A stretch of 64,000 nt of DNA. Source: Botryotinia globosa. Taxonomy: Eukaryota > Ascomycota > Leotiomycetes > Helotiales > Sclerotiniaceae. Shown in pieces: positions 1 to 64,000 of this stretch (position 1 is the stretch's first letter; the number at the start of each line of letters is the position of its first letter). A program made the position numbers and the translations under genes. A model generated the notes under the pieces. It saw only the letters and a list, made by a program, of their open reading frames with translations, was not told the origin of the DNA and ran no database searches. Where the stretch lies: the NCBI GenBank assembly GCA_014898425.1, contig RCSZ01000007.1, positions 1,798,001 through 1,862,000 of the forward strand, in the 5' to 3' direction.

Positions 1-325
1 AGTCGGTGGGCAGAGTACCGGGGAGTCGGGCCAAGAGTTGCGTGAGGAGATCGAGGGATGTGGCGGAAAACTCGCGCAGAGAATCGCTTGGCGAGGGGAT
101 GTTGATTTTTCCCTGCATGGTGGTGCGCGGTTGCGGGAGGAGGGGGTCGAGAAACTTCTGCATGGCTGCGAGGTTTTCAGGGGTTGTTTGGGGGCTCGGT
201 TTACGGTATTTGAATAGAGATGGTAATTGAATTGTAAACTGGGTGTGGATGGTGGGTAGTTCGGTCTGCTGAATCTCCTCTTCGATTCTGGAATTGAAAT
301 CGTCTTTGTAGTTTGATAATAGCAT
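1..325 (-). CDS. N-terminal part of an unrecognised protein, cut by the window edge
   Basis: An open minus-strand frame starts at the ATG at 325 and runs without a stop to the window edge (108 codons). The product begins MLLSNYKDDFNSRIEEEIQQ and has an acidic stretch, then a Pro-rich segment (about residues 40-60), then a helical-looking stretch ending LLTQLLARLPGTLPTD. Its composition is balanced, and the antisense frame at 6-230 is Arg/Gly-rich and implausible, so I take the minus strand as coding. The family is not recognised and the C-terminal part lies outside the window. The start could move if an upstream exon exists, because the flanking DNA up to about 550 is T-rich and leader-like. 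Confidence 0.55.
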   Translation of the reverse strand, partial: MLLSNYKDDFNSRIEEEIQQTELPTIHTQFTIQLPSLFKYRKPSPQTTPENLAAMQKFLDPLLPQPRTTMQGKINIPSPSDSLREFSATSLDLLTQLLARLPGTLPTD

Positions 326-717
326 TGTTTTGCATTTCTTCTAGAAGATTACATCTTCTTTGTCTTGCTTGTTTGGTACATGCCACCCTTTTTCCTTTGT
401 TGGGGAAGTTGTTTGGAGAAGAGATTCTCTGGGTGTTGAGCATTGTTTTCTTCTGGTTTCTTTGTATGTTTCAAGATTCTTTGTGCTGAGAATACAAGAG
501 AACATTGTTTAAATGTATTTCCTTGAATCTCTTGTGAAGAGATAATCCCATTGTATCTCTCCTTTCATAAAACAGATGGTAGACAATCCTTCAAAGAACC
601 TCGATTTCCTTGTTCTCGGCATATAAAAACCTCCCCTCCCCATCTCCATTACCTCAAGCACAGCACAGCACAGCTTCCAACCCCAACACCCTCCCTAGAA
701 GAAAACGAAAACGAAAA
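326..717. promoter_or_regulatory. divergent intergenic region between two outward-facing genes
   Basis: This interval separates the minus-strand gene starting at 325 from the plus-strand ORF starting at 718. It is T-rich on the left half. On the right it becomes a C-rich and A-rich leader just before the ATG at 718, as fungal 5' UTRs often are. No other coding frame is convincing. Confidence 0.5.
621..629 (+). promoter_or_regulatory. TATA-box candidate for the small ORF at 718
   Basis: The string ATATAAAAA lies about 90 bp before the ATG at 718 and is followed by a pyrimidine-rich tract, a classic fungal core-promoter arrangement. The transcription start is not known. Confidence 0.4.
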
Positions 718-1002
718 ATGCGCTTCCACATCCCCCCCCTCCGCACCCTCTCCCTCTCATCCAAGCGATCCAAGCGATCCCAACGCACCAAATCCCCCCC
801 CCCCACCCGCAGCATCGGCACCCAAACCACGCTCACCCGCACGCACAGCTCGCGCTGGACACAAACGCCTCACAGATACATTTCCTTTCATGAAGAGCAT
901 GGGCTGCAGCCGCCTAGGAAAAGCAGATTCGCGTGGCCGGCTTGGTATGCGGTTCTTGGGGGAGTGGTGCTCGGGTGGTTTGGTACGAGGGAGTGGGTGT
1001 AG
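718..1002 (+). CDS. small basic protein with one C-terminal membrane segment
   Basis: This 94-residue ORF starts at an ATG in an A-rich leader (AAAAATG). The N-terminal 60 residues are Ser/Thr/Pro/Arg/Lys-rich and probably disordered. Residues about 71-89 (FAWPAWYAVLGGVVLGWFG) form one hydrophobic span with small residues, so the protein looks tail-anchored, possibly to an intracellular membrane. A TATA box and C-rich leader precede it. The stop TAG at 1000-1002 is followed two bases later by a consensus donor (GTGAGT at 1005), so the mRNA may be spliced in its 3' UTR. An intron-like repeat array begins 270 bp downstream. An alternative reading is that a donor further upstream, such as GTATGC near 943, removes this stop and joins other exons. 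The family is unknown. Confidence 0.45.
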   Translation: MRFHIPPLRTLSLSSKRSKRSQRTKSPPPTRSIGTQTTLTRTHSSRWTQTPHRYISFHEEHGLQPPRKSRFAWPAWYAVLGGVVLGWFGTREWV

Positions 1003-1270
1003 TGGTGAGTAATTTTTCTCTTTTCTTTGGTTGGGTTTTGAGGGTTGAGGGTTGAGTGCTGATTTGGTTTGATTTGATTTGATTCTTTCCTTTCTCTTCC
1101 CTTTTTTCCTCTTCTAATCTCTCATATGTCGATTTCTTACACTTACAACAAACAAACAAATGGTCGTCACTCTTTAGACTTCCACACACCGCTAGGAAAT
1201 AGATGGAGAAAGGGAAGAAGAAGAAAAAAAGTTTCGTTTCTCTAAATGTAGACATATATATAATAAGTTT

Positions 1271-2799
1271 GTAAGTTTTCTTCTCGTCCCTGTCTTTGCT
1301 AATGGTTTGTAGGTATGTTTTTTTTCTTTCTCTCGTTATGGTTTGGTTTTGGTTTTGATAATGGTTTTTTTGGTACACGGGTAAGTTTTTCCTCGCTCCC
1401 CTTTTTTTGCTAATCGTGTATATAGTGGATACTATTTTTGAAGTTCTTTTTATTATCATCCGCTTGTTCGGAAGGCTAGGTAGGTTAATTTCTTCCCCCG
1501 GTTTTTGCTGGTTTTATATAGGTACCTGCTTCTTCTCAAATCAGAAATAGCAACTTTAGGTAAGTCATTCTTCTCCCGTTGTTCGCTAAATGAGTATAGG
1601 TGTTTTTACTTTCATATTCTAGGATTCAAAGATCTAGGTAAGTCGCTCTCCCGGTTTTGCTAATTGTGTATATAGTCATCCCCTCTCACCGTTCGCTAAT
1701 CAAGTATAGGTATCCTCACTCTCTTCACATATTCGTAATTAATACTTGAAGATGTAGGTAAGTCACTCCCTCTCCCTTTTGCTAATAGAATGTAGGTTTC
1801 CTTTTTCTTTTTCTTTTTCTTTTTCTTTTTCTTTCCCTTTTCTCCCTATTAAGATTTCAGGTAAGTCACTTCCGCCCCCATTTCGCTAACTGTGTACCGG
1901 CAGTATAATCACTATCTCATTCTTTCAATCCTAATACAGACTAGAATACAGGTAAGTCACTCTTTTTCCCCGTCCTGCTAATTGAACGTGTAGGTATCGC
2001 ATTACACTTTTCAAATATTCAACTCAGTTATACACTGCCATCTAAGTTTAAGGGATGAAATCTAGGTCAGTCGCTCTTCCTTTCCCGTTTTCGCTAATCA
2101 AATCTGTAGGATTTTATTTTTTCTTTTTCTTTTTCTTTTTTCTATTCTTAGAATACAGAGATACAGGTACGTCACTTCCTTTCCTTCTGTTCGCTAATCA
2201 GAGATATACATAGGCATCATCGTTATCCTTTCGGTTATTCAACCTTAATGCACACCACACTGCGCAGTTATAACTAACACTCCAGCTACGTCACTTCATC
2301 CTCCCTTTATCGCTAATTGAGCTTAGAGTTGTATCAGCTTTCCAGTCTACGAGCAATCTGAATAGCAAATTTATCTCCGATTTAGATTATGTCAAGTAAG
2401 TCATTCCTCCCCCTTTTAGCTAATTGTTTAGGTATTTTCAACCTTCTCTCTTCATCTACGAAGATCCATGATGTAAGAGACATTCAGGTGAGTTGCTTCG
2501 CTTATCTCCATGAGTTGTAGTACTCACGCATATTAGACTATTTGTTCAAATGTTGCATACACCAGTGGATGATTGTATCATCTCCTACCCACCTGCATCT
2601 CACTGTGCTAACCGACAACACAGGTAAACTCAATTTCATCTGCTTCAAACTCGCTCATGTAGGTAATCGAAATATCCTTCTTCGCATTCCCTCATACTTA
2701 ACAACTCATAATTATGTGATCATGGGGAACTGGCATAAATATGATCTTACAGGTAAATCATTCCGTCCCTTTCCATCAACTAACTATCTAACTTCACAG
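1271..2799 (+). repeat. tandem array of abutting intron-like units (candidate recursively spliced or stwintron-type array)
   Basis: About 14-15 degenerate units, spaced 80-135 bp (usually about 100), lie head to tail. Each has a half of about 38-47 bp built like a complete mini-intron: a donor close to GTAAGTCACTC, a C/T-rich stretch, GCTAAT and an acceptor TAG. It is followed directly by a second half that itself begins GTATC/GTACC/GTGTT and ends TAG or CAG. Unit starts are near 1271, 1381, 1480, 1560, 1638, 1758, 1861, 1952, 2066, 2167, 2286 (decayed), 2396, 2488, 2624 and 2753. Nineteen junctions read AG|GT, after 1312, 1479, 1521, 1559, 1599, 1637, 1709, 1757, 1795, 1860, 1951, 1993, 2065, 2166, 2431, 2487, 2623, 2662 and 2752. 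A last acceptor with a CTAAC branch site ends at 2799. Two halves carry CTTTTT runs (1800-1842, 2117-2140). Spacers are of irregular length (38, 48, 57, 65, 72 nt) and not coding. The bases 1003-1270 are T-rich and hold a possible 3'-UTR intron. The periodicity is clear by eye; recursive splicing is an inference. Confidence 0.7.
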
Positions 2800-3980
2800 A
2801 TAGATTAATTTTCTTTTCTCTTAACTTTCTATTCCTCAAATCGGAATTAGAATGTCAATAATAAAATACATTTCAAAACTAAAACCAAATCTTTGTGTGC
2901 TGTTAGGCGAACTATATGTACCCGTGAATGCATCATCAATATATAATATCACTATAAATTGGAAGTTTCATGGTTCCTCGAAATCAAAGGGATAGTAGTA
3001 GTAGTAAATTCATAATCGATTCGATCTATATAGCTATGCTAAGACCATGCGATGCGCCTGTATCTGTGTCTAATTGAATGAAGTAGATAGGAAAAAGATA
3101 TAAAATCGAAGGGATATGTTATGGAGTTGAATTGATATTTGATTACCACGTGAGGAAAACAATGAACATTGTCGACCAACAGACATGATCGCAGTCAACT
3201 ATATACCCACCCGTATCTCAATCTCCTCCATTCAATCCCTCAAATCTCAATTTCCAAGATCCTTATCTCTTATCCAGGAATGCAACAAATCCTCCATGAT
3301 CCCCCCTAACCCACACTAAAATCATGCTAAAGAAGCAAGCGAGCTTAAAAAGCGTAATTTAAGCTTCTAGATCCTTTCTTCTCAATTCACCTACTAGATA
3401 TCTTGTGTCTTCTTATATATCCTTATCTCTTATCCAGATATGCAACAAACACTACAATAATCCCTAAAGTTCTGAAAATTTGTCATAGAGAGGTAAGTAA
3501 TCTCTGGAGAGACTGACTCAGACGATCAATCTCATTAGGGTTTTCAACTACTGAATTACCTAGTATTTCTAAGTTTTTCAATAGCGATGCGCCTCTCCAT
3601 CGTCTTCCCTATACTCAGTAATTGACTATAATACTTGAATTCTCATGCATAAACTCAAAAATGTACCTCTAGATTTGATGCAGCAGACCAAGTAGCTTTA
3701 CTCGATACTTTATATCTTGTCTCTGAATCACAGGACTACGCAAGTGTAGTTTTAGCGTATCTACAACTAAATATATCATCCGGACCTTTGAACACCTGAC
3801 CACAACCATCTCTCTTCATAAAATACAAAACTCGCCGAATACCATAGCTGGAAGGAATGAGGGAAAGCTCGCTAGGCGTCGAATATTTCCCACAACACTA
3901 GCGAAATCTTACGATCTTCACTTTCCACCTTCATTTTCAACTTCATTGTTTTCCTTTTCATCAACTTCATTACTAGGAAG
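2800..3980. other. AT-rich intergenic stretch with one short direct repeat
   Basis: No coding frame of note occurs. A segment of about 31 bp beginning ATCCTTATCTCTTATCCAG occurs at 3259-3289 and again at 3419-3449, exactly 160 bp apart, with one or two differences. The last 150 bp are C/T-rich and read like the leader of the gene starting at 3981. Confidence 0.5.
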
Positions 3981-4592
3981 ATGTCATCAAATTTACACAG
4001 AACAATCATCTTGTACAGTAATCAACCTATAACGAATCTGATTGCATCCATATGGCCTATCTTTACACCGAAGGGAACGAAGATGAAGGAGACTCAAGAA
4101 TTGCAAGAACTTCTGTACAATGACTGTGAGTTGATTTTCATCTCTTCTAATGCCACCGATTGAGCCAAACTCACCAGCTCCCAGGCAGATAACTTTCGCT
4201 TCAGTAATTTCAAAGAAGAAAATACAACTTATTGAGGACTCTGAGAAGAGGGATTCGAAAGACACGCTACGCAATACTGGTAAAAGATGGTTTTATCGAA
4301 AACAAAGGTACTTCTGCTCCCAATGACACTCATTCAAGTTGGCTAATCGTTAGGTGTAGCAGGACAAATTCGAAGGAGACGATATAAGGCCATCATATCG
4401 ATATCGATGACCGAAGGCGAGAAGATAGCACAGAGAGCAAAACGTGTCATTGTACAACAGAAAAGCTTGGCAAAACGAAGCGATACAAAAAAAGAAGCAG
4501 ATTTGAAGCATCGTAGAGAGATGAATCGCGAGAAAGCAAAGGTTAGAGCAGAAGAGGAGCGGCAGGAGCGAAGAGATATCGCAAATGGATAA
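3981..4592 (+). CDS. hypothetical small charged protein, three exons
   Basis: Proposed exons are 3981-4125, 4178-4279 and 4354-4592, which close to 161 residues. Intron 1 (52 nt) has donor GTGAGT and acceptor CACCAG. Intron 2 (74 nt) has donor GTAAAA, a GCTAATCG branch-like site and acceptor TTAG. The C-terminal half is strongly charged (REMNREKAKVRAEEERQERR) and should form a long helix or coiled coil. No domain is recognised. A second frame, shifted by one and also Lys/Arg/Glu-rich (4585-4788), overlaps the stop. The true protein may therefore be longer, through an unseen intron, or the gene may be broken. Intron 2's acceptor is AG followed by GT, like the junctions in the array upstream. 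Confidence 0.35.
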
Positions 4593-5757
4593 AGCGGCCG
4601 AGAGAGACAGACAAAGTAATCTGGTTGATGAGCTCCGTGGTGATTATGAGCGAAGGATGGTTAAAAGTTGGGTTAAGAATTTAGTTGTGGGGAAGTTGGG
4701 AAGTTGGGAAGTTATGGAGATATCGATGATGGAGATATATGAAATCCTAATACACAAGAGATATTCACAAACAACCATCACGCCCTAATCATGAGAGAGA
4801 AGAAGAACAAAAGAAAGTAGCCCACCAGTGATAGCCTGCTCAGTAAAAATGTTCCCTCATCTCTCTTGTCCTTCTCCCTCACTACCCATCCGCACCCCAG
4901 CCCTCTAATTCAGCCTAACTAATACTAATACTAATACTCACACTGAACATTAACACCAATCCTAAATACCAATCCTAAATACCAATCCTAAATACCAATC
5001 CTAAATACCAATACCAACACCACCATCACCATCACCATCACCATCCATTTCAACCAAACCCACTACTATCCATACGCATATCCTAAGACAATGAAATCCT
5101 CTAGAAAACCCAGATGTTCTGCTAGATTTGGACATCAAGAATGTCTAATTTCAAGTTTCTAATTTCAAATTTCAAATTAGTTTGCTATACTATACCGATA
5201 ATCCACACCCCACCCATTCCCACTCACGAATAATAGGAAAAAGTACGCACATCAAGACTCAACAGAGAAAGCTCAGCTCCCAGTTCTCAGCTCTCGGCTC
5301 CAAAAAGCTATTATCAGAAACGCGGCTCACCCACCCGATCAAAAGAAGCGAATACCTACCTACCTACCTACCTATCTTGGCTCACCACCGCCCTTTGGAT
5401 CGAGTCTAGGTCTATTATTCGATTTTGTATATAAGCCCCACCAAATAACAAAATGGTATCTTATCCATACAAGTAAAACTTTGAATTTCGGATATTTCAT
5501 TATTCTTTCTCCGCTTGTAAATCATAATTCTTAATATATTTCTTTCTTTCCCGTGTTCCGACTGCCATTCCTTCATATCTATTCTCTTCGCTCCTCTTAA
5601 AAGTGTATTCGCCATTCCATGCATACATGCGTACAATCATCCACCCACCCATCCATCCATCCCAAACCCTCAAAAATATAATAAAAATATAACTCAACGC
5701 TCTACTCCCCAATCAACAAACCAACTCACCCATTCATTTTCATTTTCCCACAAAACT
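4593..5757. other. intergenic region rich in simple repeats
   Basis: Apart from the shifted charged frame to 4788, no gene is seen. The stretch holds AATACT triplet-like repeats (about 4919-4939), four tandem 13-mers (separate entry), a CACCAT run (about 5019-5045), a TACC tetranucleotide run (about 5356-5375) and a CCAT/CCAC run near 5640-5662. The right third is probably the 3' UTR of the minus-strand gene ending at 5758. Confidence 0.5.
4955..5006 (+). repeat. four perfect tandem copies of a 13-bp unit
   Basis: The unit ACCAATCCTAAAT is repeated at 4955, 4968, 4981 and 4994 without a mismatch, then decays into ACCAATACCAAC and a CACCAT run. It is a minisatellite, useful as a polymorphic marker. 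Confidence 0.85.
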
Positions 5758-8307
5758 TTACCTCTTTAAATCCTTAACCTTAATCTCTCCACCTCCTCTC
5801 CCAGTCTTTCCTTTCCCATTTCCATATCCTTCTACCCCCATCTCTCGCATAGCTTGTTCAACCATATGTACAGCCTCTATACATACATCACCACCGTTCC
5901 TCCAAGCTCTGAGCGTTACACCTTGTCCATCAAGAATGTCTTTTGAGCGCTTCCAACGACGTCTCCAGAGATCGAATTTTTTGTTTGCTGGTGCTCCACT
6001 GGATGCTCGGTGAAATTCATCGTCTGATGAATCAGGGGAGCTGGAGATTGAAGAATTAATGGTAGATTTTCGACTTGGGAGAGGCGGTGGTCCATTGTTT
6101 GATGATGGACTATACGATGGATCGAATGCAGGTTGGGGCCTTGGATTCGATTCACCCATGCCTGGTATGTAAGATCTCATTTCTGGAAGATTGTTATAGG
6201 TCTCTGTAACCTTATGACGAGCACTTGAGATATAACCTTCACTAGATGATTCTGATAGCTCTGCACTACTTTGTGCCTGCTTCAATGGGTGATTATTTAC
6301 ACTTCCACGGATAGCACCTGAGCGACGAGGTTTTGGTGGTGGTGGTGGTGGTGGAGTATTTTGCTTTGGGGGTTCGGATGATTCGGGTGGAACCATTGTG
6401 ATTGTACTGGCTCCACGAAGGGATAATGGCTTAGAAGGTCGAGGTGGAGGGGCTTTCCCATCATTGGCGGATTTTCGTCGTGGAACATTTGGTACTTCCA
6501 TCTCTGACATAGATCGAGGTACTACTTGCCTATGAGATGTATGTATTGGCTCATTCTCAGGCTCATCTCCGAAATCAATAAGGGTTCCCATGGTTGGACC
6601 ATTACTGGTCTGGAGTTTAGTTTCCGAGGGAACTCTGGGAGGCAAAGATGGTCGTTTCTCTGATAGCTCAGATTTACTAAATGTAGATGATCTCCTGCTA
6701 TCAATGGATTGCGTCCGAGATTGTGTTCGAGATTGAGGTTCAAACCTTCGACGGTCTCCGCTGAGTGGGCCCAATGCAGGATCAAAGAAACCTATATCTT
6801 CAGGTGTTGTGACATCTCTGATAAAGATACCCAGGATCTTCCCCGGATTTGCTAAAACGACATCGGTATAGACTTCTAAATCTGCTTCACCACTATCTCC
6901 AATCAAAATGAATTTCCTTTCCGAAAAATCTCGCATGATCTTCTCAAGGGTACCCTTCTTTCTTTCTGCAACAGGTTCAAAAATACCCTGAAGCATCCCG
7001 CTGTATTGTTTTAGGTGATAAGATCCAGGTGGTAGCCCTGCTTTTCTGAAAAAGCTCACCAAGACTGGAAACAATTGCCAAGGTGAATTGGATACATAGT
7101 GTACCCCAACACCCATATCATACATTGTGTTATACCATTCCCTGACACCTTCAATTGTGAGATCAGCAAATTCGCGAATGAAGACATTTCTAAAAATCTC
7201 TCTTGATCCTGCACCAATTGAAGAGTGCTTGATTGTATCGTCAACATCAGTAATGAGACTAACTCCTTTTGGCTCAGTAATTTTGACTTCTTCAATTGCT
7301 GAAAGGTTTTCGGAAGCCAACACTCTAACGTGTGTGGGAACAAACTCTAAAGCGGCTCGCATAATGAAATGGCCTGCTTCGTTTGTTTCTATTGTTCGCG
7401 ATGAAGAATTCTTCTCATCGTAAAAGAAAACCGTAATCGCTGTTTCGACCTTTGGATTCGTAAGGAATGGTCTTAATCGTGCCATCAAATGAGCGTTTGC
7501 TGTTAATAGTTCCGCCTGAGTCATCTCGGATGGTTGATTCCATGATGTACGTTTTGTTAGACGACTTGGAGCAGGTGATGACTCTGGTGATACCCGCGAA
7601 CTGCTACCCCGCTGCCTGCCGCGTTCACTATAGATACTATCACCATCCGATTCCCGTTTTGGCTTTTCACTATAGTCACCCCGTAGTGCTGCCTCCTCCT
7701 CCCCTCGACCCTTTTTCAGTATCTGTTCTGCCTCTCGGGCAATCTTCTCCTCATCACGCCTCTGTTCGAGTTCTCTATGTTTTGCTCTCAATGAATTTGA
7801 ATCCGGACTGGTCTCTCGAGAACCAGATTTTGGTGCTGGGATCCCACTCAACTGGCGTGCAAGACCAATGAGTAACCTGTTCTTTCTTGTCATAGGTCCT
7901 CTATGAGGAGAGTAAAGCCATCCTCTAACATCCACATCAACTATAGCCCTATCATCCTCATACTTTTGCCATTCCCTCGCCCAATACTCCGCATCTCCGG
8001 GTTCGTTCAATTTAGGATTCATGTTGGCATTTTCAAAGAATGGTTTCTCTTTGGTATGTCTCCGCGCATATGATGGAAATAATATCATTTGCTCATCACC
8101 ATGAGAAACAATAGATACATCCGGAAATGAACCTGGTATTCCATGTTCATCGTCATCTAATCCACTACTCCCACCCCATTTCTCCGAGTATGATTGTTGA
8201 TACGATTGACGAAGTTCGTTTGCAGCTTTCAAATACCCTGCCAATTTCCCCCTCTTCCCCCCTCGTTTTTTATCCTCCCCGTATCCATCTGCGACATAGC
8301 CAGACAT
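5758..8307 (-). CDS. APP1: APP1-type phosphatidate phosphatase (DUF2183)
   Basis: Actin-patch APP1 enzymes dephosphorylate phosphatidate to diacylglycerol, Mg-dependent, at endocytic sites. From the first in-frame ATG (8307) the protein has 849 residues. The N-terminus is basic with KLAGYLKAANELRQSY, followed by a Ser/Arg-rich linker. The catalytic domain carries the HAD signature DVDDT at residues 354-358, then HYVSNSPWQLFP and FILIGDSGEADLEVY. The C-terminal 300 residues are disordered and hold PPPPPPPKPRR and similar SH3-binding Pro runs, as expected for a protein recruited by actin-patch SH3 proteins. The frame stays open upstream to 8625 with coding-like basic sequence but no ATG (only GTG), so a 5' exon may exist. 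No intron is needed in the body. Confidence 0.9.
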   Translation of the reverse strand: MSGYVADGYGEDKKRGGKRGKLAGYLKAANELRQSYQQSYSEKWGGSSGLDDDEHGIPGSFPDVSIVSHGDEQMILFPSYARRHTKEKPFFENANMNPKLNEPGDAEYWAREWQKYEDDRAIVDVDVRGWLYSPHRGPMTRKNRLLIGLARQLSGIPAPKSGSRETSPDSNSLRAKHRELEQRRDEEKIAREAEQILKKGRGEEEAALRGDYSEKPKRESDGDSIYSERGRQRGSSSRVSPESSPAPSRLTKRTSWNQPSEMTQAELLTANAHLMARLRPFLTNPKVETAITVFFYDEKNSSSRTIETNEAGHFIMRAALEFVPTHVRVLASENLSAIEEVKITEPKGVSLITDVDDTIKHSSIGAGSREIFRNVFIREFADLTIEGVREWYNTMYDMGVGVHYVSNSPWQLFPVLVSFFRKAGLPPGSYHLKQYSGMLQGIFEPVAERKKGTLEKIMRDFSERKFILIGDSGEADLEVYTDVVLANPGKILGIFIRDVTTPEDIGFFDPALGPLSGDRRRFEPQSRTQSRTQSIDSRRSSTFSKSELSEKRPSLPPRVPSETKLQTSNGPTMGTLIDFGDEPENEPIHTSHRQVVPRSMSEMEVPNVPRRKSANDGKAPPPRPSKPLSLRGASTITMVPPESSEPPKQNTPPPPPPPKPRRSGAIRGSVNNHPLKQAQSSAELSESSSEGYISSARHKVTETYNNLPEMRSYIPGMGESNPRPQPAFDPSYSPSSNNGPPPLPSRKSTINSSISSSPDSSDDEFHRASSGAPANKKFDLWRRRWKRSKDILDGQGVTLRAWRNGGDVCIEAVHMVEQAMREMGVEGYGNGKGKTGRGGGEIKVKDLKR

Positions 8308-10108
8308 CGAATTGGATGATGGGTTCAGCTGTCTAGAAGCCGTCGCATTGTCTTTAGAACCGCCACCGAAGAATCTTCTCACTGGTCTTCCAAGAATTTG
8401 AAAGGCAGTTTTCCCAGCAGCTCTCTTTCTCTTTCGGCTCAACCGAGTCCTGACTATGTAATTATAGATTCGTGATTGTGCGCCGAGTTTGTAGGATGGG
8501 AATGTTTCGAATCTGAAATTTGCAAAGCACTGGCGGATAGTCTGCCGAAAATGCGGGAACAAGTATCGGAAAAATGATGTCCTACGATGAGCATTACCTG
8601 CTCGACGAAATGAAGGAGGGGCCACGATGAATGTGCGAGGCTGTCAGCTTGAATGATGTTGAGTGCTGTGGAGACGTTCCAGTCCTTTTACCTAGGTAGT
8701 TTGGTGGGTGTTAAAAGGAACAAGCTAGGTTAATAAATAATAAATAGCAAACCCAAGCAAGCCTGCTTATTATTTATTTATGCTATAGGTATGATCTGAC
8801 AATACTCTTTCTTACTGGGGTTATGAGGAAAAATAAGGGCAGACGGGAGATTTTGATCAATTGATTTTCATTGTACGAGATCGAGGGAATAATTAAACAT
8901 TGACGACCTTGGAATTATGGTTATCTACGAGAGAGAGTACATAGGTAGGTAGGTACTTTTACTATCATTGTCCTAGCTTTATTACTTGATTATTAGATAC
9001 CTTCCTTACCTACCTAGTTGCTTGGGTATCCATGGATCACCAGGATTTCATAAGAATTACATCCATCCTACGTCACTTTTGGAAAAGGCGGTCCACCCTG
9101 TCCAGCCCAGCCCTACAATAAAAATAACCTGGAAGGTTAACAGATTTACAAGTCAGGTAGATTTATTACTACCAAGATGTATATAAAGGTATATAAAGGT
9201 ATATAATAATGATAACAAGTGATATATCCCTATATACTTTTAGACGTTACTATTATCTAGATACAAAGTAAAGACAGAATAATCAGAATAAGCAGAATAA
9301 GCAATTAAATATGAAACTTTCTCTCTCACAACCATCACATGGAAACAAATACACCAGCAAATCTAGAATCCATCGTCTTGGGGTGAGACACGTAGTAGTC
9401 TCGGAATCTGAATTGTATTGATTTCTTAAAATACATAGTCATCTATCTATGTAGTCATGTCGTTTGAAAATGACCTAGACTAATTCCCGCGCCATCTTTC
9501 AACCAATGCTTGGTCGTGTCAATTTCACTTGACAAACTCCCCCCTTTCCCTTTCCCTTTCCCTCAACCCTCAATAAAGTGAAGCAATAGTCTCTAAGAAC
9601 GCCGGTGCCGGATTATTTTCAGGAGGATCTGCCCTTTCAATTTGCCTCAACACTGTACCCAGGCCTGAATGTGAATTTTCATTATTACGGCTTTACCCCG
9701 AAGGAATATCAAGGAAGTAGGTGATACTTAAAGATTTACTTAATGAAATGATTGAATGAATGAATGTGTTGATGCAAACTGCCTCAGGTCAGTAAGTTAT
9801 TAAGTTGGTCGTTTTTCCGGTTTTTTTTTCTTCTTCTTTTCAAATCTGATTATATGATCGCAATGATCGAAAGCTAATGTAGAGCAAGCCTGTCGTTAGA
9901 TACCATCAACGATAGTAGAGTAAGAGATGATATGGTTCCACACTGAATCATTATCCAGCAGCAACTACCTGCCGTCTCTTTGTGGATGCATTTTCAACGT
10001 CCTAGATAAAGTGTTAGTAATGCTTGGAATTTATCTGAGAAAAATCCCAATCAAAAATGAGATCTTCCGCCTTTAACCTTGGGCCATATCCCGAACGAGG
10101 GATTGGCT
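8308..10108. other. intergenic region with a possible missed 5' exon part and simple repeats
   Basis: Bases 8308-8625 are open in the APP1 frame without an ATG (see that gene). Beyond this no gene is seen. Features are TAGG/CCTA tetranucleotide runs (near 8692, 8942-8954, 9004-9015), a triple 10-mer TATATAAAGG (about 9179-9205), CTTTCC runs (about 9544-9563) and a poly-T stretch near 9822. The right part is likely the 3' UTR of the poly(A) polymerase gene. Confidence 0.5.
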
Positions 10109-12570: not shown

Positions 12571-14184
12571 ATGGCCGATTCTAATAATGCTTGGGAGGGC
12601 AACGAGGAAACTCAAAATGATCCTGATGAGAGAAGAGTTCTTCATCAAGCCTTGGATTCTTTCTAGTAAGGATAGTTCTATTTGATGACGGCATCTTTGA
12701 GTCCGATAAGAGGGGGGTCCGGCTAGAATCGTAACACCACCTAATTCATGGGACTATCAAGCGAGTTCTATCTGTGCCATGTTAGGGGGGACCTTTACGT
12801 GTTCGGTGAGCACGGGAGCCGAGGGAATATGATATATGCATGCTCATTGACATACACATATGTCTCTTCTTATTACCACACAAATACATGTACTCTTATT
12901 GACATACACACTAGCCACTACCAAAAGACCGCTCACTACAACACCACTCATCTACGAAGACAAGCCTTCTACGCATTACCTCGAGCTCACTGGGAACTTC
13001 TCGCATCACCACCCATTAATTATCTGAACACCCTAATAGCCGTCGACGACGCTATAGATCAAAATGCCGAACTCTCAGAAGCCATCTTATCAGCGGCCCT
13101 CCCATCCTTCAACCTTCCATATCCCTCTTCAAACTTCAACCCTTCCACCAAATCTCCCGATGATTTCCGAGGTACAGCAACCTCAAGTGATCTCGAAAAA
13201 GCTCGAAGTACCCTCCGGCAAATGTATCGAGACTGGTCTTCCGAAGGAGCAGTCGAACGCGAAGCATCCTACCGCCCTGTAATCCGCGCCCTCCAAGACG
13301 AAAAAGCTAGATCCTCTCCCCTCAAACGCAATATGCGCGTTCTAGTTCCAGGCGCAGGTCTTGGGCGTCTAGTATTTGATCTTTGTATGCAGGGCTTCGA
13401 CGTCGAAGGCAATGAAATTAGTTATCATCAACTTCTTGCCAGCGCCTATATTCTCAATTTCTGTCCCCAAAAGGAAAATCATACTATTTTCCCTTGGGTT
13501 CATTCCTTCTCCAATCACAAAACTCGAAGCAATCATCTCCGATCCGTCAAAATCCCAGATGTTCACCCAGGAGATGCGTTAAATTCCAACCCACAAGCAG
13601 GAGAAATGACAATGAGTGCCTCCGATTTCCTTCTCTTATATGGCGATGAAGAACGTGCCGAATCCTTCGACGCAGTAGCTGCTGTCTTCTTCCTCGATAC
13701 AGCTCCAAACATCATCCGCTATCTCGAAGCTATTCGCAACTGCCTCAAACCTGGCGGCATACTCATAAATATGGGACCACTCCTCTGGCATTTCGAAAAC
13801 AATCCTCCTGGTTCCTCTACCCCTCCATCATCAAAACAACCTAGCGATCAGATTCAAGATCATGGTATTGCCGATCCTGGAAGTATCGAACTTACAAACT
13901 CAGAAGTACTGCTTCTACTTCCTAAGTTGGGGTTTGAGGTCCTTACTTCCTCAACTGATTTACGAGCGCCCTATATTCAAGACCCAAATTCCATGCTACG
14001 AAATACTTATTCGGCTAGTTTTTGGGTGGCGAGGAAGAGCGAGGAGAGAGGAAATGCGAATCATGGACATGCACAGCCACGTGATAATGGTATGCAAGAA
14101 GGAAAACATGAACATGGCATCCCACCCATAATCCGAGAAGAGGATGAAGAAGGAATTGAACCAGCACCGGAAGGCTGGGTATAG
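12571..14184 (+). CDS. carnosine N-methyltransferase-like SAM-dependent enzyme (N2227 family)
   Basis: Family members use S-adenosylmethionine to methylate a histidine nitrogen (carnosine to anserine in animals); the fungal substrate is less certain. Exons 12571-12665 and 12915-14184 join to 454 residues. The 249-nt intron (GTAAGG...ACTAG) restores SFYHYQKTAHYNTTHLRRQ, which leads into the conserved RRQAFYALP. The SAM site is VLVPGAGLGR (about residues 174-183), followed by GNEISYHQL and later DTAPNIIRYLEAI, where acidic and backbone contacts lie in this family. PLLWHF and the C-terminal FWVARK also fit. The tail is acidic and disordered. An ATG three codons earlier (12562) is in frame; the one chosen has a better context (GAG ATG G). 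Translating without the intron adds an implausible N-terminus. Confidence 0.9.
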
Positions 14185-55554: not shown

Positions 55555-56096
55555 AATAAGTTTCAATTAATTAAAAGTTTAATTTATTACTTATAACTAA
55601 TCAGAAGGAGTTTTAGGAATATATAAATAACAAAAATAGTCTAATTATAAAAATAAAAATAAAATAAAATTATTCTATTGAATTAATTATAGTATAAATA
55701 TTTGAAAAAGATTTATACTATACTTTCAGTGATTTTATTGAAGATTTATTAAAGATTTTTTTAAGATTTTAAGATTTTAAAGTTAAATGAGAAAGTTATA
55801 GAGATTGATTTTTGTTGTTTTTGATATAAAAAGCAGTCGAGATTATAAGTGATCGATAAGTAGAGATTAACAACGCCCTCCCACACCGGACTATCTACTT
55901 CTTTCTTTTCCGATCGATTTCTCAATTCGTTTAAGGTTGTATACTAGATTGAAATGATTTTCATAATTTTTCTCTCGTACTTGACTGAAACAACTAATAA
56001 GCTTCAATGAATCAAAAGTTTCACAAATTATTTATAACCTATCAGAAAAGGGTTTGAATATACCAAATAAAAAAAATGCTTTAGTTATAGAAATAT
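55555..56096 (+). repeat. pair of diverged ~100-bp direct repeats
   Basis: The segment 55555-55655 (AATAAGTTTCAATTAATTAA onward) and the segment 55996-56096 (AATAAGCTTCAATGAATCAA onward) align over about 100 bp with many C-to-T and G-to-A type differences, 441 bp apart. They flank a sequence whose minus strand starts TGTGGGAGGGCG at 55885, like the head of an LTR. They are probably remains of repeated elements damaged by RIP. Confidence 0.45.
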
Positions 56097-56243
56097 AGTT
56101 ATGTAATATATAGAGTATAGCTTGATCTTGTTGACTTTTACGAATTCATTATATTAGTTATAATCTAATCTAATCTTTCTAATAGATATAAAATTAAGAA
56201 TTTTTATCAAGCTTGTCTCGCTTATTCTACTACAATCTACTGT

Positions 56244-56573
56244 ATATAGAATTTAGTTATATCGAAATAAAAATTTTGATCAATAAAATCTGATATAAAC
56301 AAGATTCCGATATAAAAATTAATAGTCGAGTACTATTACTAATATATATATTCGATTTCAGCTTCAAACCCTAAAATTTTCGGAAAATATTATGTGATAT
56401 CAGCTAATTAAGATTACTTATACATAAAAAAGCTTATTCAGCTAAATCTATTATTAAAACTTATATCGGATTCGTGAAAAATCAATTCGGTATTTCGACT
56501 TTATCTAAAAATCCGGTATCGCTATATAAAAAGTGATCAAATCAGGAAAAGTTTCCGGTATATCCCAGTCCGG
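56244..56573. mobile_element. pogo-like MITE, copy 2, RIP-damaged and cut on the right
   Basis: It aligns in order with the copy at 24913: a decayed left TIR (TAGAATTTAGTTATATCG), AAGATTCCG, AAAGCTTATTCAGCTAAAT, TCAATTCGGTATT, AAAATCCGGTAT and AAGTGATCAAATCAGGAAA. Differences are mostly C-to-T or G-to-A. The right TIR is missing: the element stops at AGTCCGG and TGTGAGGGCG begins, where the retrotransposon has entered. Confidence 0.7.
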
Positions 56574-56700
56574 TGTGAGGGCGCACAGACCCTCTCTGCA
56601 CGTGACCGGTTATACTAGCCATTTTAGCTAGTCCTTTCAAATATAAGTTGGAAGCCTCGCTTCCAACTTCCTCTTAGATCTTTATCAATAACTAAATCAT
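56574..56700 (+). repeat. LTR head with two hairpins, little mutated
   Basis: This stretch keeps a normal base composition. It contains a perfect 10-bp stem with a 3-nt loop (56646-56668, AGTTGGAAGC against GCTTCCAACT) and a second hairpin, ACTAGC against GCTAGT (56614-56632). The TG start and the position suit an LTR. Its right end cannot be set. Confidence 0.5.
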
Positions 56701-59469
56701 TAAAACAACTCCTTTTCAATTTATAATCTTTATAGAATTATTAATTATTTTTTGAATTAGATAGAAGTTGTTTGTATACAAAATATATATAAAATAGATC
56801 TAAATTATTTCTAAAGAAAAATTATAATAATCTATAATACTATTTAAACAAATTTTAAATCATTTGTAAGTTTTATACAACAAGATTAAATTAACAAAAA
56901 AATGGTTATTAGGAATATAAGATTGTAAGAGTTAATAAAATTAGAAGTGTTATTCAATCTATTATTCTTTAAACAAAATAAAACTTTTTAATCAAAATAA
57001 ATAATAATCGAAAAAGTATATACAAAAGAAGCTATTAGATAAGGAAAACAATTAGAAATAAATACAAATCAAAATAAAAAAGGAATAAACTATCCGAATC
57101 TTCGAATTTGATTCAAGGAAATAGTTATTATAAATCTTTAAAAAACAAACTATTCAAACCTTCGAATTCAATTTGAAGAAAAAGCTAATATAAGTTTTCA
57201 AAGAGAAAATCAAATAAAAAGTTTTTTATTATTCGAAATAAACAAATTTGAAATTTTTATTTTAATATACTTTTATTTATTAATTATTATTAATTGTTAT
57301 TATTAAATTAATTTATAAGAAGATATGAATAATCAAGCTGCTATAAGACAAAGGGATTCCTTGTTTTATTCAAATATATTGAAAGAATTATAAAAGATTA
57401 TAATCTAATAAAAAAGATAATTGGAGATATAAATTGAGAAGAATAGAGAAAGAGAAGTAAGAATAATAATAATGGAATGTTAATTAGTAATATCTATATA
57501 TAATATTTCAATTAATAATATTGTAAAATCTAATAATTTACAATTCTTTGTAAATAAAAGAATCTTTATAGATATTAGATTAAATAAATTATTATTATTA
57601 AATATCCGAAATATATTAATTATTATTGGTATTAATACTTTATTTATATTATTTATAGAATTCTTTTAGAATAAATCTAGGATCAAAGTATTTTTATTTT
57701 TTGAAAAAGGGAAAATTAATATTAGATTATAGATTATAAAGTTAGAAAACTATTTTGTATTAAAAAATATTTCTAATGTTATACAATAAGTAATATTAAT
57801 AAGAAATTATATTGATAAAGGTATTAAAAAGTGAATTATATTAATACAACTATATAATAATCCTTTAATTATTGTAAAATTCGAGAATTGGAATTTCTTA
57901 AAAGATTAATTATTCAATCAATATAATTCTATCGATATAGATTTAGAAATCAATTTTTAAATAATAAAAACTATTATATTCGAAAAACAAATGATATAAG
58001 ATTTTAACAACTATTTCGAATCAATCCTTCAAAATGTTTTGTAGATATATAAAAATCAAACAGTGGTTATATATTATTCTATAAAATTAATTAAATTTAT
58101 TCTTTTATATATTTATATAAATTATAATAGAATATTACCTATAATATTTAAAGGATTGAAAATAGTAATATAAAATATAAAGAATTTCCTATATATATAA
58201 AAACGATTGTTTTCAATCAATAATAAGCAAATAAGATTTGAAAAAAAAAGAAAATCAAATAAGAATATATAATACAATATTTTCAATTCAATTAAATCTA
58301 ATAATAATTTATATAAAAAAAAAAGAAAAAAGATAAGATTTCTTAAAATCTCAATAGAATAAAAAAAAAGATATAAAGAAAACAAAATATATTTCAAATA
58401 CAAAGAAATAAATTATTGGGCTAGTAATTATAAGAATTAGTCAATTAATAAAAAAGAAAATAAATAATTGAAAAACAATAGCTCTTTTCAATAATAGAAG
58501 TGTTGGAATAAAAAAGAGATAATCACTTTAAAGAAAATTATATTAAGCTAAAAAAAAACCTAGGAAAGTTTTTAATTGTTATTATAAAAAAGGATAAGAA
58601 TTTATATAATTATTAATTATTAAATCTAATATAAAAAACAATAATCTAATATTAAATACTCAGTGTTATACAATCAATATATTCAAATCAAACTGAAAAG
58701 ATATTATTAACATTAGCTCTAATACAAAAAAGGGAATTACAATAATTAATAATATTAGAATTATATAATATAAAATTATCAATAGAAATAAAAAATCAAT
58801 TATATCAATATTATAATTATAAAAATATTATAGATTTTTTTCAATTGTTGAATATAAAAGATTTTTTTCAAATAACAATTATTATTTATCTAAATAAAAA
58901 CAAAAACAAAATATTATTTATAATAATTATTAATTTTATTATAATAATGAATTTTATTTTTTTAAAAATAGTAAAATAAATCTAATATAAAAAGTTAAAT
59001 ATATACTATCCATCAATCAAAAATATAAACAAAAACATTTTAGAATTAGTATTTATTTTAATTTACAAGAAAATTAATTTCGAATATTTATTAATTAAAA
59101 ACAATATATTATCAAAATTCAGAATTATACCATTAAAAATAAGCGATATTATACTCGGATTTCTATAACTTCAATAATATAATTCGAAAATAAATTGAAA
59201 ATTAAATAAAATATCTAATAATAACAATTTAGAATTATAAACTATATTAGATATACTTGATTTTTTGAATCTTATATATAATACAATTAAGAAAATAGAG
59301 ATTATATCAAAAAAAATACAATTGTAGTGATACTATTATTCCTAATACTTATAGATAATAATAGAATAGATTATACAATTACTTAGAAAATATTTAGAAA
59401 AATTCTAGATATATATTTGAAATACTTTTTATTATTCAATAAAAAAAAAGCAGAAAAATTATTATTTTA

Positions 59470-60100
59470 TAAATCCAAAATTGATTATAAAATCGTTTTT
59501 TGAAAAGATTATTAATCAAAATTTGAATTGTTATATAATCTATCCAAATATAAACTTGAAATACTTAAAAAATATATTACAAAAATATTTGTATTAGAAT
59601 TTATAAAATTATCAAAATCAAAAATAGAAATACTGCTTTTGTTTATATATAAAAAAGATATTAAGAAATTATATTTATATATAGATTTTAAAAATATAAA
59701 TAACAATATAATATTAAATTAATATTTTATTCTATTTATCTTGAAAATACTAAATCACTTTGGAAAAGCAAAGATATTTATAAAATTTAATCTATATAGA
59801 ATCTATAATTTAATAAGAATTTATTTAAATAATAAATAGAAAACAGTCTTTTATATATATTTTGGATTATTTGAATATTTAATATTATTATTCGATTTAT
59901 ATAATACTTCAATTATTTTCTAAGTATATATCAATTAATATCTATAAGAATTTGTTAATAAATTGGTTATTATATATTTAAATAATATTTTAATTTATTC
60001 GAAAAATAAAGAAGATTATAAGTTTTATATAAAACAAATCTTGAAAAAACTATTAAAATAAAGATTATTTTATAAATTCGAAAAATATCAATTTAATATA
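59470..60100 (+). pseudogene. reverse transcriptase relic (Ty3/Gypsy)
   Basis: One open piece (59528-59722) corresponds to the Gypsy RT start: LYNLSKYKLEILKKYI, FIKLSKS and LLFIYKKDIKKLYLYIDFKN stand where family members have a PLS..EL, GFI.PS.SP and FV.KKDG.LR.C.DYR pattern. The next piece contains HFGKAKIFIKFNL and FGLFEYLILLFDLYN. The catalytic Tyr-x-Asp-Asp box is at 59975-59986 and reads Tyr-Leu-Asn-Asn, both Asp codons changed to AAT. In-frame stops stand where Gln or Trp is expected. It cannot be active. Confidence 0.8.
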
Positions 60101-60339
60101 AAAAAAAAAATTCCTAAATTATATTATTTCAAATAAAAAAATCGCTATAAATCAAATTAAAATTGATTTAATTATAAAATAACTAATATTAAAATCAATA
60201 CAAAAAATATTATTATTTTTAAAGTTTTATAATTTCTATAAATAGTTTATATTTAGTTATAATAATATTATATTATTAATAATAAATAGTACAAAAAAAA
60301 AAAAGTTTGAATAAATTAAAAATTATAAAAAAGCTTTTA

Positions 60340-60660
60340 ATATATTTAAAACCGTTTTTATCAAGATTTTATTATTATATTATTTTATTGTAATATTAAT
60401 CTATTTTTTAAAAACAAATATATTTATTAAAATATTATATAAAATATTATTATAAATCCAAAAAGATATATATAAATATTTGATTGTATTTTATTTTCGA
60501 AAACTAATACTAATAAAAATAAACTATATAATATTCAATTAAAAATTACTTACAATAATAAAATCTATTAAATATTAGTATTATTTTTTGAAAGAAGTTT
60601 AATATCAAGTAATCATTATTTCCAATTATAATAATTTAAAGTATTTTATAATTTTCAGAA
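60340..60660 (+). pseudogene. RNase H relic of the same element
   Basis: The frame reads YLIVFYFRKLILIKINYIIF, a stop, KLLTIIKSIKY, a stop, then YYFLKEV and NYNNLKYF. The order matches the Gypsy RNase H pattern (AFYSRKL..AE.NY...DKELLAI, then TDHKNL.YF), with the Asp of the last box changed to Asn. It is broken by several stops. Confidence 0.75.
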
Positions 60661-61319
60661 TCCTTATAAAAAGATAAACTAAATAGATAATAATATTATT
60701 AATAATCAATTATATTATTATATATAAACTAAGGGAAAAAACCCCTGCTAATAACCCCTTAAGAAAAACGGATTATTAATACAAGATAATAGAATTAATA
60801 TCTCTTTTAAAACTATAAAAATAAATTATAGATTTATTATTATTATTAAATAGTTAATTTAATATATTACATTTAATTGAAGATATTATAAAAAGGGAAA
60901 TCAAGGAAAATATATTATATATATTTAAAAAATTATAAGAAATAGATAAAAATTGTATTGATATAAAAAAAACCGAATTCTTTGTTATATTTTAAACTAA
61001 AAAGATATTAAAAAAAAGTTTAAATAATATTTAAAAAAGCTTAAAGTAATAATTAGATTTTATTAATTCAATTCAATACTATTAATAATTATATCCTAAT
61101 TTAATAGGAATTTAATTCAATTTGAAAAAAGGATTGTAGTATTATAATAAAACAAAATTGTTTATTTCAATAAATAAAATATTACAAAAAGATTTAATAA
61201 AAGAATTTTACAATTCCTCAATTATAGAATATTTTGATAAAAATAGAATAATTAGAATAATAAAAAGAATATTGTATTAGTAAAAAATAAATATGAATAT
61301 TAAAGATTATATATACTTA

Positions 61320-61865
61320 TATTTAGTTTGTTAATATAACAAATCATTATATATAATAATTATAGAAAAACTAGCTCTAATATTTATTCCAAATAAATTA
61401 TAGGGAGGTATAATATTGAATCTAATTATAGATTTATTAATATCAAAATTTAAAGCAAATTTTAATAACAAGAAAAAAAGAAATATATAATTATATTCTG
61501 TTTATAATATTATATTAAATATAATTTATAGAATAACAAAAAAAACAAAGTTTTTATTATACAAAAAGAATATAATATCAATCCAATTTGTTTATCTTTT
61601 TTTAAAAAAGATATTTATAGAATATAAAATATCAAATTCTATTATTACAAATAGAGTAAATTTATTTATAAATATATTTTAAATAATATTTATAGAATAT
61701 TTAAGTATAATTTGAAAATTATTCATAATATTCTATTTATAAATAAATAATTCAATTAAAAAATTAAATCAAATTATAAAAATATACTTTAGAATATATA
61801 TTAATTATAAATAAAATAATTAAATAGATTTATTATATTTAGTAGAATATATATATAATTTGATT
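61320..61865 (+). pseudogene. integrase core relic of the same element
   Basis: Readable pieces are IPNKL, a stop, GGIILNLIIDLLISKFK (where the first core Asp lies), then SNSIITNRVNLFINIF (second acidic site, Asp to Asn), INNSIKKLNQIIKIYFRIYI and IDLLYLVEYIYN. These follow the Gypsy integrase layout. Stops replace Gln and Trp codons. It is inactive. Confidence 0.75.
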
Positions 61866-64000
61866 TCTATTTTAAGTACTAAATTATTACTTTTTGAAAT
61901 AAATAGAAAAAATATCTTATTATTTCAAATTATTACAATTATAAATAAAAGACTAGGAAATGTAAAACAATTAATAAAGAAATTAAAAGAATTATATTAA
62001 TAATTAATAAAAGATTTAATATATATATAAGATATATAAGCAAAATATTACAATATAAAATATTATTTATTATTATTCAATATCAAAAATCAAATATAGT
62101 TATTTTATAAAAACCTGATAATAAATTGAAAATATAAAAAATTAGGGTTTAAAAAATTAGGATTTTTCAAAGTATTTGAAAGTATTAATTTGCAAAATTA
62201 TTAAATCAAGTTTTTAATATTCTATAAATACTATAATGTTTTTTATATAAGTTTGTTGATATTATATAGAATAATAAAAAGAATGAATAGATTCGAAGAT
62301 ATATTAAAACTATTTGTAATAGAAATAATTATAAATAAGATTTATAAAAATAAGATATTGAAATAAGAAATAAAAAAAATCCTGAATTCAAGAATATATA
62401 AATATTAAAGAAAATTATAATATCAAATATATTAAAAAAACTATTTTCAGAATAAGGATAATTAATAATTATTAAAAAATTTAGAGAACTCTAAAAAAGA
62501 AATTGTAGAATTTTATAAAAGAAAATCTTTTGTTTTAAATAGAATTATAAAAGAATAATTATATCGATTTTATTTCTATTTTTTTAAAGAAAAAAAACTT
62601 GATAAAATCTAAAAGAATTATAATTAATTTTTATTTTATAAAATATATTATAAATATTAGATTATAATTATTTATTAGTTAATAGTTATAATTCAGATTT
62701 GATAATATAATTGTTTATTAGAAAAATTTTCAAATTTATTTAAATTGAAAGTGAATATCAATTATATATTTTAAGATAAGGGATATAGGATAGTTAGTAG
62801 ATATTAGAATAGAGTTTATAATATAAATAAAAATATATAGAGTAAATCTCATTTTCAAATAAAATAAAATAAAAAACTATAGCTTTCTTTTTAATATAAT
62901 TAAACGGAAAAATGAACCTTTGATTATTGTTGTTGATCTATGAATTTGAAGTTTTATCAAAAAATTATGTTTTTTAATTAATATTATAATATAATAAATC
63001 ACAAATAAAAGAATGAATTATTAAATAGCTTTTTTATTATAATTCAAATTATTATTATTATTTATTTAAAAGTAGAAATTAATATAAAAATAGGATAATG
63101 AATATAATCAATTTAAATAAACTTAATATTATTCTAAAAGCAAAAATGAAATCAATTCTATTATATATATTTTAAATCTAAATCGAAGTATAAGAAAAAG
63201 AAATCAAACATTTATTTATTATAAATTTCGAAAGAAAAAACAAGGAATATTGAAAAAAGATAAAGTAAATAATTATCAAGATATATAGGAAAATATAGAT
63301 TTGGTTTTAATTAAACTTTTGATTAAATAATTATAGATAAATATAGATATTGGTAGTAGCCTTTGATATATTTAGATTTGGATATAAAAAACTTAATTAA
63401 AAGAATTAAGAAAATCAAAATATAATAGTAAAAGCATTTCTAAAATATAATCGAGTAATAATTTATAAAGTATATAAGGAGTATATTAAATACTAAGAAT
63501 TTGTTTTGTTGATCTTTAATAAATCAAAAGGATTTATAAGAATTGTTTTTATTAAATAATAACAAAAATAATTATTAGATAAAAGTAATATTAAAATAGA
63601 ATTTAAAAACAATCTAGGATTACTTTGTGAAACCAATAATAATTATATTTATAATATTATAGAAAATCAGAAGATAGATAATATTGTATTAAAAAATCAG
63701 AGTATAATTATAAAAAGAAATAATTTAAATCATTAATATTTGAATAACAAATTTAAACAATTTGTATTGAAATCCGTAAAAAAATTAATTGAAAACGATA
63801 TCAAGTATCTCTATAATAAAATTAGTAATTTATATTAATTGATACAATAATATAGCAAAAATATAAAATAAGATTTTTTACAATAAATTTTTCATTAATA
63901 AAATATTATATATAAATTTAATTCAAAATCAAATAAACTAAAGAGAATCAATAGTAATGTAAATATAGTTTACAAATATTTGTAAATAGATTTATATATA

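Follow-up and report, generated by a model that had tools for sequence, protein, structure and literature searches.

Tandem intron-signal cassettes bounded by AG/GT downstream of a small gene in Botryotinia globosa

INTRODUCTION

Intron growth by tandem duplication of AGGT-bounded sequence is known from fission yeasts: in SPOG_01682 and SOCG_00815, an intron is reported to span two or four AGGT tandem duplicates (Zhu and Niu 2013, cited after PMC4974935); the copies described there are 24 bp long, exonic, located in coding genes, and supported by ESTs. Among ascomycetes, excerpts on stwintrons (PMC8469720, PMC9024468), including the sequence-similar sister stwintrons of Hypoxylaceae, present complex introns made of two nested introns, found in many genes and removed by consecutive reactions, and introner-like elements of Dothideomycetes form families of related introns with copies in unrelated genes (PMC4457414, in part). 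In Drosophila, acceptor and donor are juxtaposed at ratchet points, two of which lie in the intron of the kuz example (PMC8605326, in part). Mutually exclusive exons, of alpha-tropomyosin and others, are small clusters of animal coding exons in which donor and branch site are too close to react (PMC6692369, PMC5740500, both in part), and in human systems donor and branch are reported to need a distance of at least about 50 nt, 35 nt having abolished assembly on one pre-mRNA (PMC6692369, in part). In the portions of the open-licence papers considered, we recognised no report in which more than a few spliceosomal introns abut in a row.

Here, we describe an array of intron-like cassettes in a 64,000-nt stretch of the B. 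globosa genome (contig RCSZ01000007.1, positions 1,798,001 to 1,862,000; the window, to which all other positions refer). Its tandem copies carry AGGT as do those of the fission yeasts, but they are about 15 diverged cassettes in non-coding DNA, and most of them hold donor, pyrimidine tract, branch motif, and acceptor. Whereas stwintrons are pairs of nested introns, the array has many cassettes in one place, most of them too short for an internal intron, and unlike introner-like elements, the family was found in one 1.5-kb stretch only by the genome searches made. Its main branch motif follows the donor at a short distance, whereas that of ratchet points precedes the junction of acceptor and donor. 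Compared to the clusters of mutually exclusive exons, the array offers up to 14 spacers without a reading frame.

RESULTS

A one-stranded array of cassettes at a single locus

The array spans positions 1271 to 2799 on the plus strand only (Table 1). About 15 cassettes recur every 78 to 136 nt, donor to donor, each in the order YAG/GTAAGTCACTC (the slash marks the junction), a pyrimidine-rich tract, GCTAAT, usually 4 to 12 bases, and TAG. Boundaries were set by hand and gave 15 donor-bearing cassettes, a donor-less remnant (1676 to 1709), and 14 second halves of units. A preliminary description of this DNA had reported 19 AG/GT junctions and a recurring unit of donor, pyrimidines, GCTAAT, and TAG, followed by a second half that starts with GT and ends with AG. 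The array of AGGT is borne out, with a count of 20, one of which (1482) is a by-product of GTAGGT; the unit recurs in about 15 cassettes, with altered or weak signals in the units at 2286, 2488, 2624, and 2753, and the GT to AG form is seen in 7 of the 14 second halves and not in the remaining ones.

Table 1. Positions of the cassettes and neighboring features in the window. Gap, distance from donor to branch motif.
Feature	Position	Strand	Remarks
Putative TATA box, TATAAAA	622..628	+	Upstream of small gene; predicted function
Small gene	718..1002	+	94-aa predicted protein with hydrophobic C-terminal stretch; upstream neighbor of array
Possible 3'UTR intron of small gene	1005..1177	+	GTGAGT ... 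CTAAT ... TTTAG; predicted
Possible proximal poly(A) signal, AATAAG	1262..1267	+	After TATATATA, just before cassette 1; by resemblance
Cassette 1	1271..1312	+	Gap 22 nt
Cassette 2	1381..1425	+	Gap 23 nt
Cassette 3	1480..1521	+	Branch changed to GCTGGT
Cassette 4	1560..1599	+	GCTAAA branch; gap 20 nt
Cassette 5	1638..1675	+	Gap 16 nt; unit also includes the remnant's GCTAAT (gap 52 nt, allowed)
Donor-less cassette remnant	1676..1709	+	Pyrimidine tract, GCTAAT, TAG
Cassette 6	1758..1795	+	Best consensus; gap 18 nt
Cassette 7	1861..1903	+	Gap 19 nt; unit also has CTAAT at gap 64 nt
Cassette 8	1952..1993	+	Gap 20 nt
Cassette 9	2066..2109	+	GTCAGT donor; gap 22 nt
Cassette 10	2167..2213	+	GTACGT donor; gap 21 nt; CAG right after branch motif, TAG 12 nt after
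Cassette 11	2286..2326	+	Donor G lost (CTACGT); gap 21 nt
Cassette 12	2396..2431	+	Gap 18 nt
Cassette 13, degenerate	2488..2520	+	Without own branch motif; unit has CTAAC at gap 114 nt, CAG abutting next donor
Cassette 14, degenerate	2624..2662	+	Without CTAAY
Cassette 15	2753..2799	+	GTAAAT donor; CTAAC at gap 21 nt, second at gap 29 nt; CAG at 2799
Possible distal poly(A) signal, AATAAA	2860..2865	+	Just past array; sole AATAAA on the plus strand of 1 to 3300; by resemblance

Compared to 500 first-order Markov resamples, positions 1261 to 2830 were enriched in AGGT (20 occurrences; resampled mean, 6.7; maximum, 16), YAGGT (20; mean, 4.0; maximum, 10), GCTAAY (12; mean, 0.55; maximum, 4), and GTAMGT (9; mean, 0.69; maximum, 4). 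Over the whole window, the donor 11-mer with up to three mismatches was not enriched (111 found versus 130 expected). By counts per 1.5 kb over 282 kb, the array ranked top for GTMMGT (10; next, 6) and GCTAAY (12; next, 5), and it held nine AGGTRNGT versus eight at locus L020. This donor cluster outside the array was rejected as a further candidate, as it is a run of AGGT-like short repeats.

Among the checks that the preliminary description had proposed, alignment of the units showed strong similarity among cassettes (below), and Tandem Repeats Finder missed the array itself, reporting only a TTTTCT run inside it; a repeat finder recovered 9 to 10 donor-block copies at 74- to 124-nt spacing, the tenth lying 357 nt further on. 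A DNA search with 1260 to 2830 over the 45.7-Mb, 27-contig assembly (E ≤ 10) returned the array alone and no second copy, and the pattern YAGGTAAGT..CTAAY..YAGGT matched twice in the same assembly, both times inside the array (cassettes 6 and 8), with one match for the reversed control. The cassettes are thus related, one-stranded, and found only at this locus by the searches made. A dispersed intron family was rejected, since in these searches pattern and DNA matched only here; near-identical copies in many unrelated genes, as with introners, were not found. Coding exons were likewise rejected: the longest stop-free stretch of the joined second halves was 86 codons versus a shuffled mean of 77, which gives no sign of a reading frame. 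A search of positions 1 to 6000 for RNA families gave seven matches up to an E value of 5, every one far under its gathering score.

Signals are kept while the intervening stretches have diverged

By summed pairwise alignment scores, similarity among cassettes exceeded dinucleotide shuffles with z scores of 30.6 in global and 31.2 in local alignment (reached by none of 200 shuffles), and z scores of 18.6 and 21.2 were still obtained when 6 nt were trimmed from each end. The second halves, scored the same way, gave global z scores of 5.7 whole and 4.0 trimmed and local z scores of 0.9 and 1.2. Cassettes are mostly 60 to 85% alike, while second halves are near-random and the 38- to 103-nt stretches between cassettes are almost unrelated to one another. 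Information per position peaks at donor, branch motif, and AGs. The few bases between branch and acceptor vary; the first YAG comes 4 to 12 nt after CTAAN, but directly after it, as CAG, in cassette 10. Donor, pyrimidine tract, branch motif, and acceptor have therefore been kept, as the preliminary description had noted of the splice signals, and the stretches between them and the next cassette have lost almost all similarity.

Among the 11 cassettes with an intact GCTAA, the core pyrimidines were changed in 0 of 44 positions versus a minority C or T at 41 of 143 in the tract (Fisher test, 5e-6), the branch half of the 0/44 count being biased because the cassettes were chosen for this motif; donor purines in the same set were changed in 4 of 44. 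Across all 15 donors, T2 was present in 15 and T6 in 14, so that the pyrimidines of GTAAGT were changed once in 30. C7 and T10, which lie beyond the classical donor consensus, are also kept, and common descent explains this. Their retention, along with the roughly regular spacing of 78 to 136 nt, would also suit an array that acts at the DNA level, in which repeated AAGTCACTC and a homopurine strand provide binding sites for a chromosomal protein and the splice-like look is coincidental; we regard this as very unlikely, given that donor, branch, and acceptor stand in the right order on one strand and are each enriched over resampled sequence.

Cassettes nearer each other are more alike (permutation P = 0.001), as fits the earlier suggestion of a family grown by tandem duplication; spacers show no such trend (P = 0.14). 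Blocks 6 to 8 and 9 to 11 aligned above shuffles (z = 10). Since their score of 70 was narrowly surpassed by one of five permutations of the spacer order (74), these blocks do not establish a duplication of three units. TTTTTC runs in two spacers that lie three units from each other (1797 to 1841 and 2112 to 2150) are a possible trace of such a duplication or of slippage. Related tandem copies bounded by AGGT, as in the AGGT tandem-duplication model, are present with a weak relation among spacers; because spacer similarity is weak, the case for duplication is built mainly on the cassettes and less on whole units. The likeness of whole units, with spacers as similar as cassettes, expected of a simple minisatellite was not seen in the array.

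The main rival to a spliced array is a decaying, minisatellite-like repeat that derives from an intron, is neither spliced nor functional, and carries splice signals because these were what was copied, its spacers having diverged faster through slippage and indels. We consider it unlikely on balance. First branch motifs too near their donors, degenerate units toward the 3' end, a unit without a donor and another with CTACGT, the TTTTTC runs, and the failure to find a second genomic copy all agree with such decay. It accounts poorly for core pyrimidines that have hardly changed while C/T exchange is common in the tract, and for second halves that are near-random next to cassettes so much alike.

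Most cassettes fall short of a genome-wide donor-to-branch step

In all 12 cassettes with CTAA followed by C, T, or A, the first branch motif lies 16 to 23 nt past the donor, with the branch A at 26 to 33. To place this in the genome, we counted matches to GTAAGT, gap, CTAAY, 3 to 14 nt, and TAG over the 45.7 Mb, overlapping matches at one place being counted repeatedly. Gaps of 19 to 26 nt gave 76 matches (4, 2, 7, 6, 8, 6, 8, and 35 by gap), 3 of which are array cassettes; that is, counts jump at 26 nt, with 35 matches versus 2 to 8 at each of 19 to 25 nt. Gaps of 24 to 35 nt gave 710 matches, and gaps of 12 to 23 nt gave 62, of which 6 are in the array. Reversed-pattern controls gave 277 (gaps 12 to 23), 254 (24 to 35), and 185 (19 to 26) and exceeded the matches at short gaps (277 versus 62; 185 versus 76) because the control words are commoner; for this reason we rely on the step between neighboring gaps and not on the controls. 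With GTATGT/CTAAC/CAG, the 36 matches at gaps 19 to 27 (3 at 21, 1 at 22, 6 at 24, 5 at 25, 8 at 26, and 13 at 27 nt) rise less sharply, from about 24, so that the array gaps of 22 to 23 nt are close to the limit. The donor-to-first-branch spacing is below the genome's jump in all 12 motif-bearing cassettes. The jump at 26 nt possibly reflects a species-level steric rule for the introns of this genome; the limit it suggests is shorter than the human one of about 50 nt and of the same nature (PMC6692369, in part).

In 10 of the 15 units, no CTAAY at an allowed distance is followed by YAG within 3 to 20 nt. Units 5, 7, 10, 13, and 15 hold such a CTAAY at gaps of 52, 64, 101, 114, and 29 nt, respectively, and in-unit splicing is therefore open to these five. 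The accompanying YAG abuts the next donor position in units 10 (a further CTAAC, with CAG) and 13, and in unit 5 with a looser motif. Cassette 15 could possibly be an ordinary 47-nt intron. An open reading frame-based scan of 282 kb predicted 39 candidate introns, 4 of them of 47 nt or less; 1 of the 27 strong candidates is that short. YAG stands directly before 12 of the 15 array donors, compared to 3 of these 27 strong ordinary candidates; a pyrimidine occupies -3 in all 15 array donors.

These data bear on the earlier proposal of abutting mini-introns removed one by one, with AG/GT as zero-length exons in ratchet-like or stwintron-like stepwise splicing. The juxtaposed YAG/GT is more acceptor-like than exon-like, half of the second halves run from GT to AG, and units 10 and 13 (and 5, with its looser motif) could form whole-unit introns, although unit 10 is followed by a donor that lacks its G. 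One-by-one removal along the chain fits poorly with first gaps below the jump in 12 of 12 cassettes and with the 10 units that have no allowed CTAAY of their own. An internal intron that is itself canonical and excisable, as in a stwintron, is not seen in these 12, with cassette 15 (gap, 29 nt) as a possible exception. At a ratchet point, a branch site would precede the juxtaposed acceptor by a short distance; here this is the case for a minority only, with YTRAY 3 to 20 nt before the end of 4 of the 14 second halves. Ratchet points in Drosophila are few per intron. They also lie mostly in long introns (PMC8605326, in part), and altogether we hold stepwise splicing of this kind to be improbable.

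The small gene and the flanks of the array

The small gene upstream possibly provides the host transcript of the array. Its predicted protein is 61% identical to BOTCAL_0380g00060 of Botryotinia calthae and 73% identical over the aligned 73 residues to EAF01_007316 of Botrytis porri, and it had no match in Pfam at an E value of 0.001. Two TQT motifs (GTQTT and WTQTP), shared with the B. calthae and B. porri proteins, precede the C-terminal hydrophobic stretch and are reminiscent of sites bound by dynein light chain. A weak resemblance (tblastn E value, 0.43) links 1138 to 1188 with the tail of the B. calthae gene model. Against positions 1 to 6000, the B. calthae and B. porri gene-model tails gave weak matches, the best with tblastn E values of 0.016 and 0.043, both outside the array, and their local alignments remained below shuffled maxima.

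Poly(A)-like signals flank the array on both sides. Such an arrangement, with strong donors at unproductive spacing, would suit a decoy in which donor and branch sites at blocked distance hold U1 and U2 snRNPs and bring about nuclear retention, preference for the distal poly(A) site, or RNA silencing like the stalled-spliceosome pathway of Cryptococcus. The SCANR precedent (PMC5851062, in part) lends it some plausibility but comes from a basidiomycete yeast, and we give the decoy only a slight chance.

Elsewhere in the window, the carnosine N-methyltransferase-like protein encoded at 12748 to 14181 is 98% identical to a Botrytis hyacinthi protein over 88% of the query. An open reading frame at 5758 to 8643, on the minus strand, represents an APP1-domain gene. 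At 4955 to 5012, in intergenic DNA, a 13-bp repeat, ACCAATCCTAAAT, occurs in 4.5 perfect copies. From 56000 to 64000, GC content drops to 12 to 20%, with many short AT repeats, versus 34 to 48% in the other 2-kb steps; by its composition, this region looks like a RIP-degraded or centromere-like block.

DISCUSSION

The reading we prefer, tentatively and at somewhat less than an even chance, is that an intron cassette bounded by AG/GT was amplified in tandem in non-coding DNA downstream of the small gene and that, if transcribed, it would yield long, variable introns. A short cassette of intron signals may have been duplicated to about 15 copies. Most donors would then be unable to react within their own cassette and would have to pair with branch site and acceptor further along, in a later unit, a choice that the spacing limit leaves free because donors are 78 to 136 nt apart. 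In effect, the array would form a single long intron or a small number of overlapping ones, whose ends are redundant and mutually exclusive; adjacent second halves would tend to exclude each other, much like sterically enforced exclusive exons (PMC5740500, in part), and the transcript of the small gene would carry variable non-coding 3' ends. Against this amplified-intron reading, the small-gene transcript could already terminate at the poly(A)-like signal at 1262, ahead of the array, and selection on single copies within a redundant array is hard to explain.

A bolder version, which we judge rather improbable from the sequence patterns at hand, has the roughly 15 cassettes under selection, with a spacing that mostly forbids reaction within a cassette, so as to produce combinatorial non-coding 3' ends or to hold parts of the spliceosome on the RNA. 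It would amount to the steric exclusion of small animal exon clusters, multiplied in tandem in a fungus.

Because most of the signal sets fall below the length needed for excision on their own in this host, two options are left for the array: a single long intron with many redundant ends, or a repeat with only the appearance of introns. The 26-nt donor-to-branch jump, if borne out with RNA-proven introns, would be a useful rule for intron annotation in Botrytis-like fungi. If the array is not spliced, it warns that well-formed, ordered splice signals do not make an intron, since spacing vetoes them. If it is spliced, it would provide a natural multi-copy test of how the spliceosome chooses partners when most nearest pairs are sterically blocked, as well as a record of intron growth through tandem duplication.
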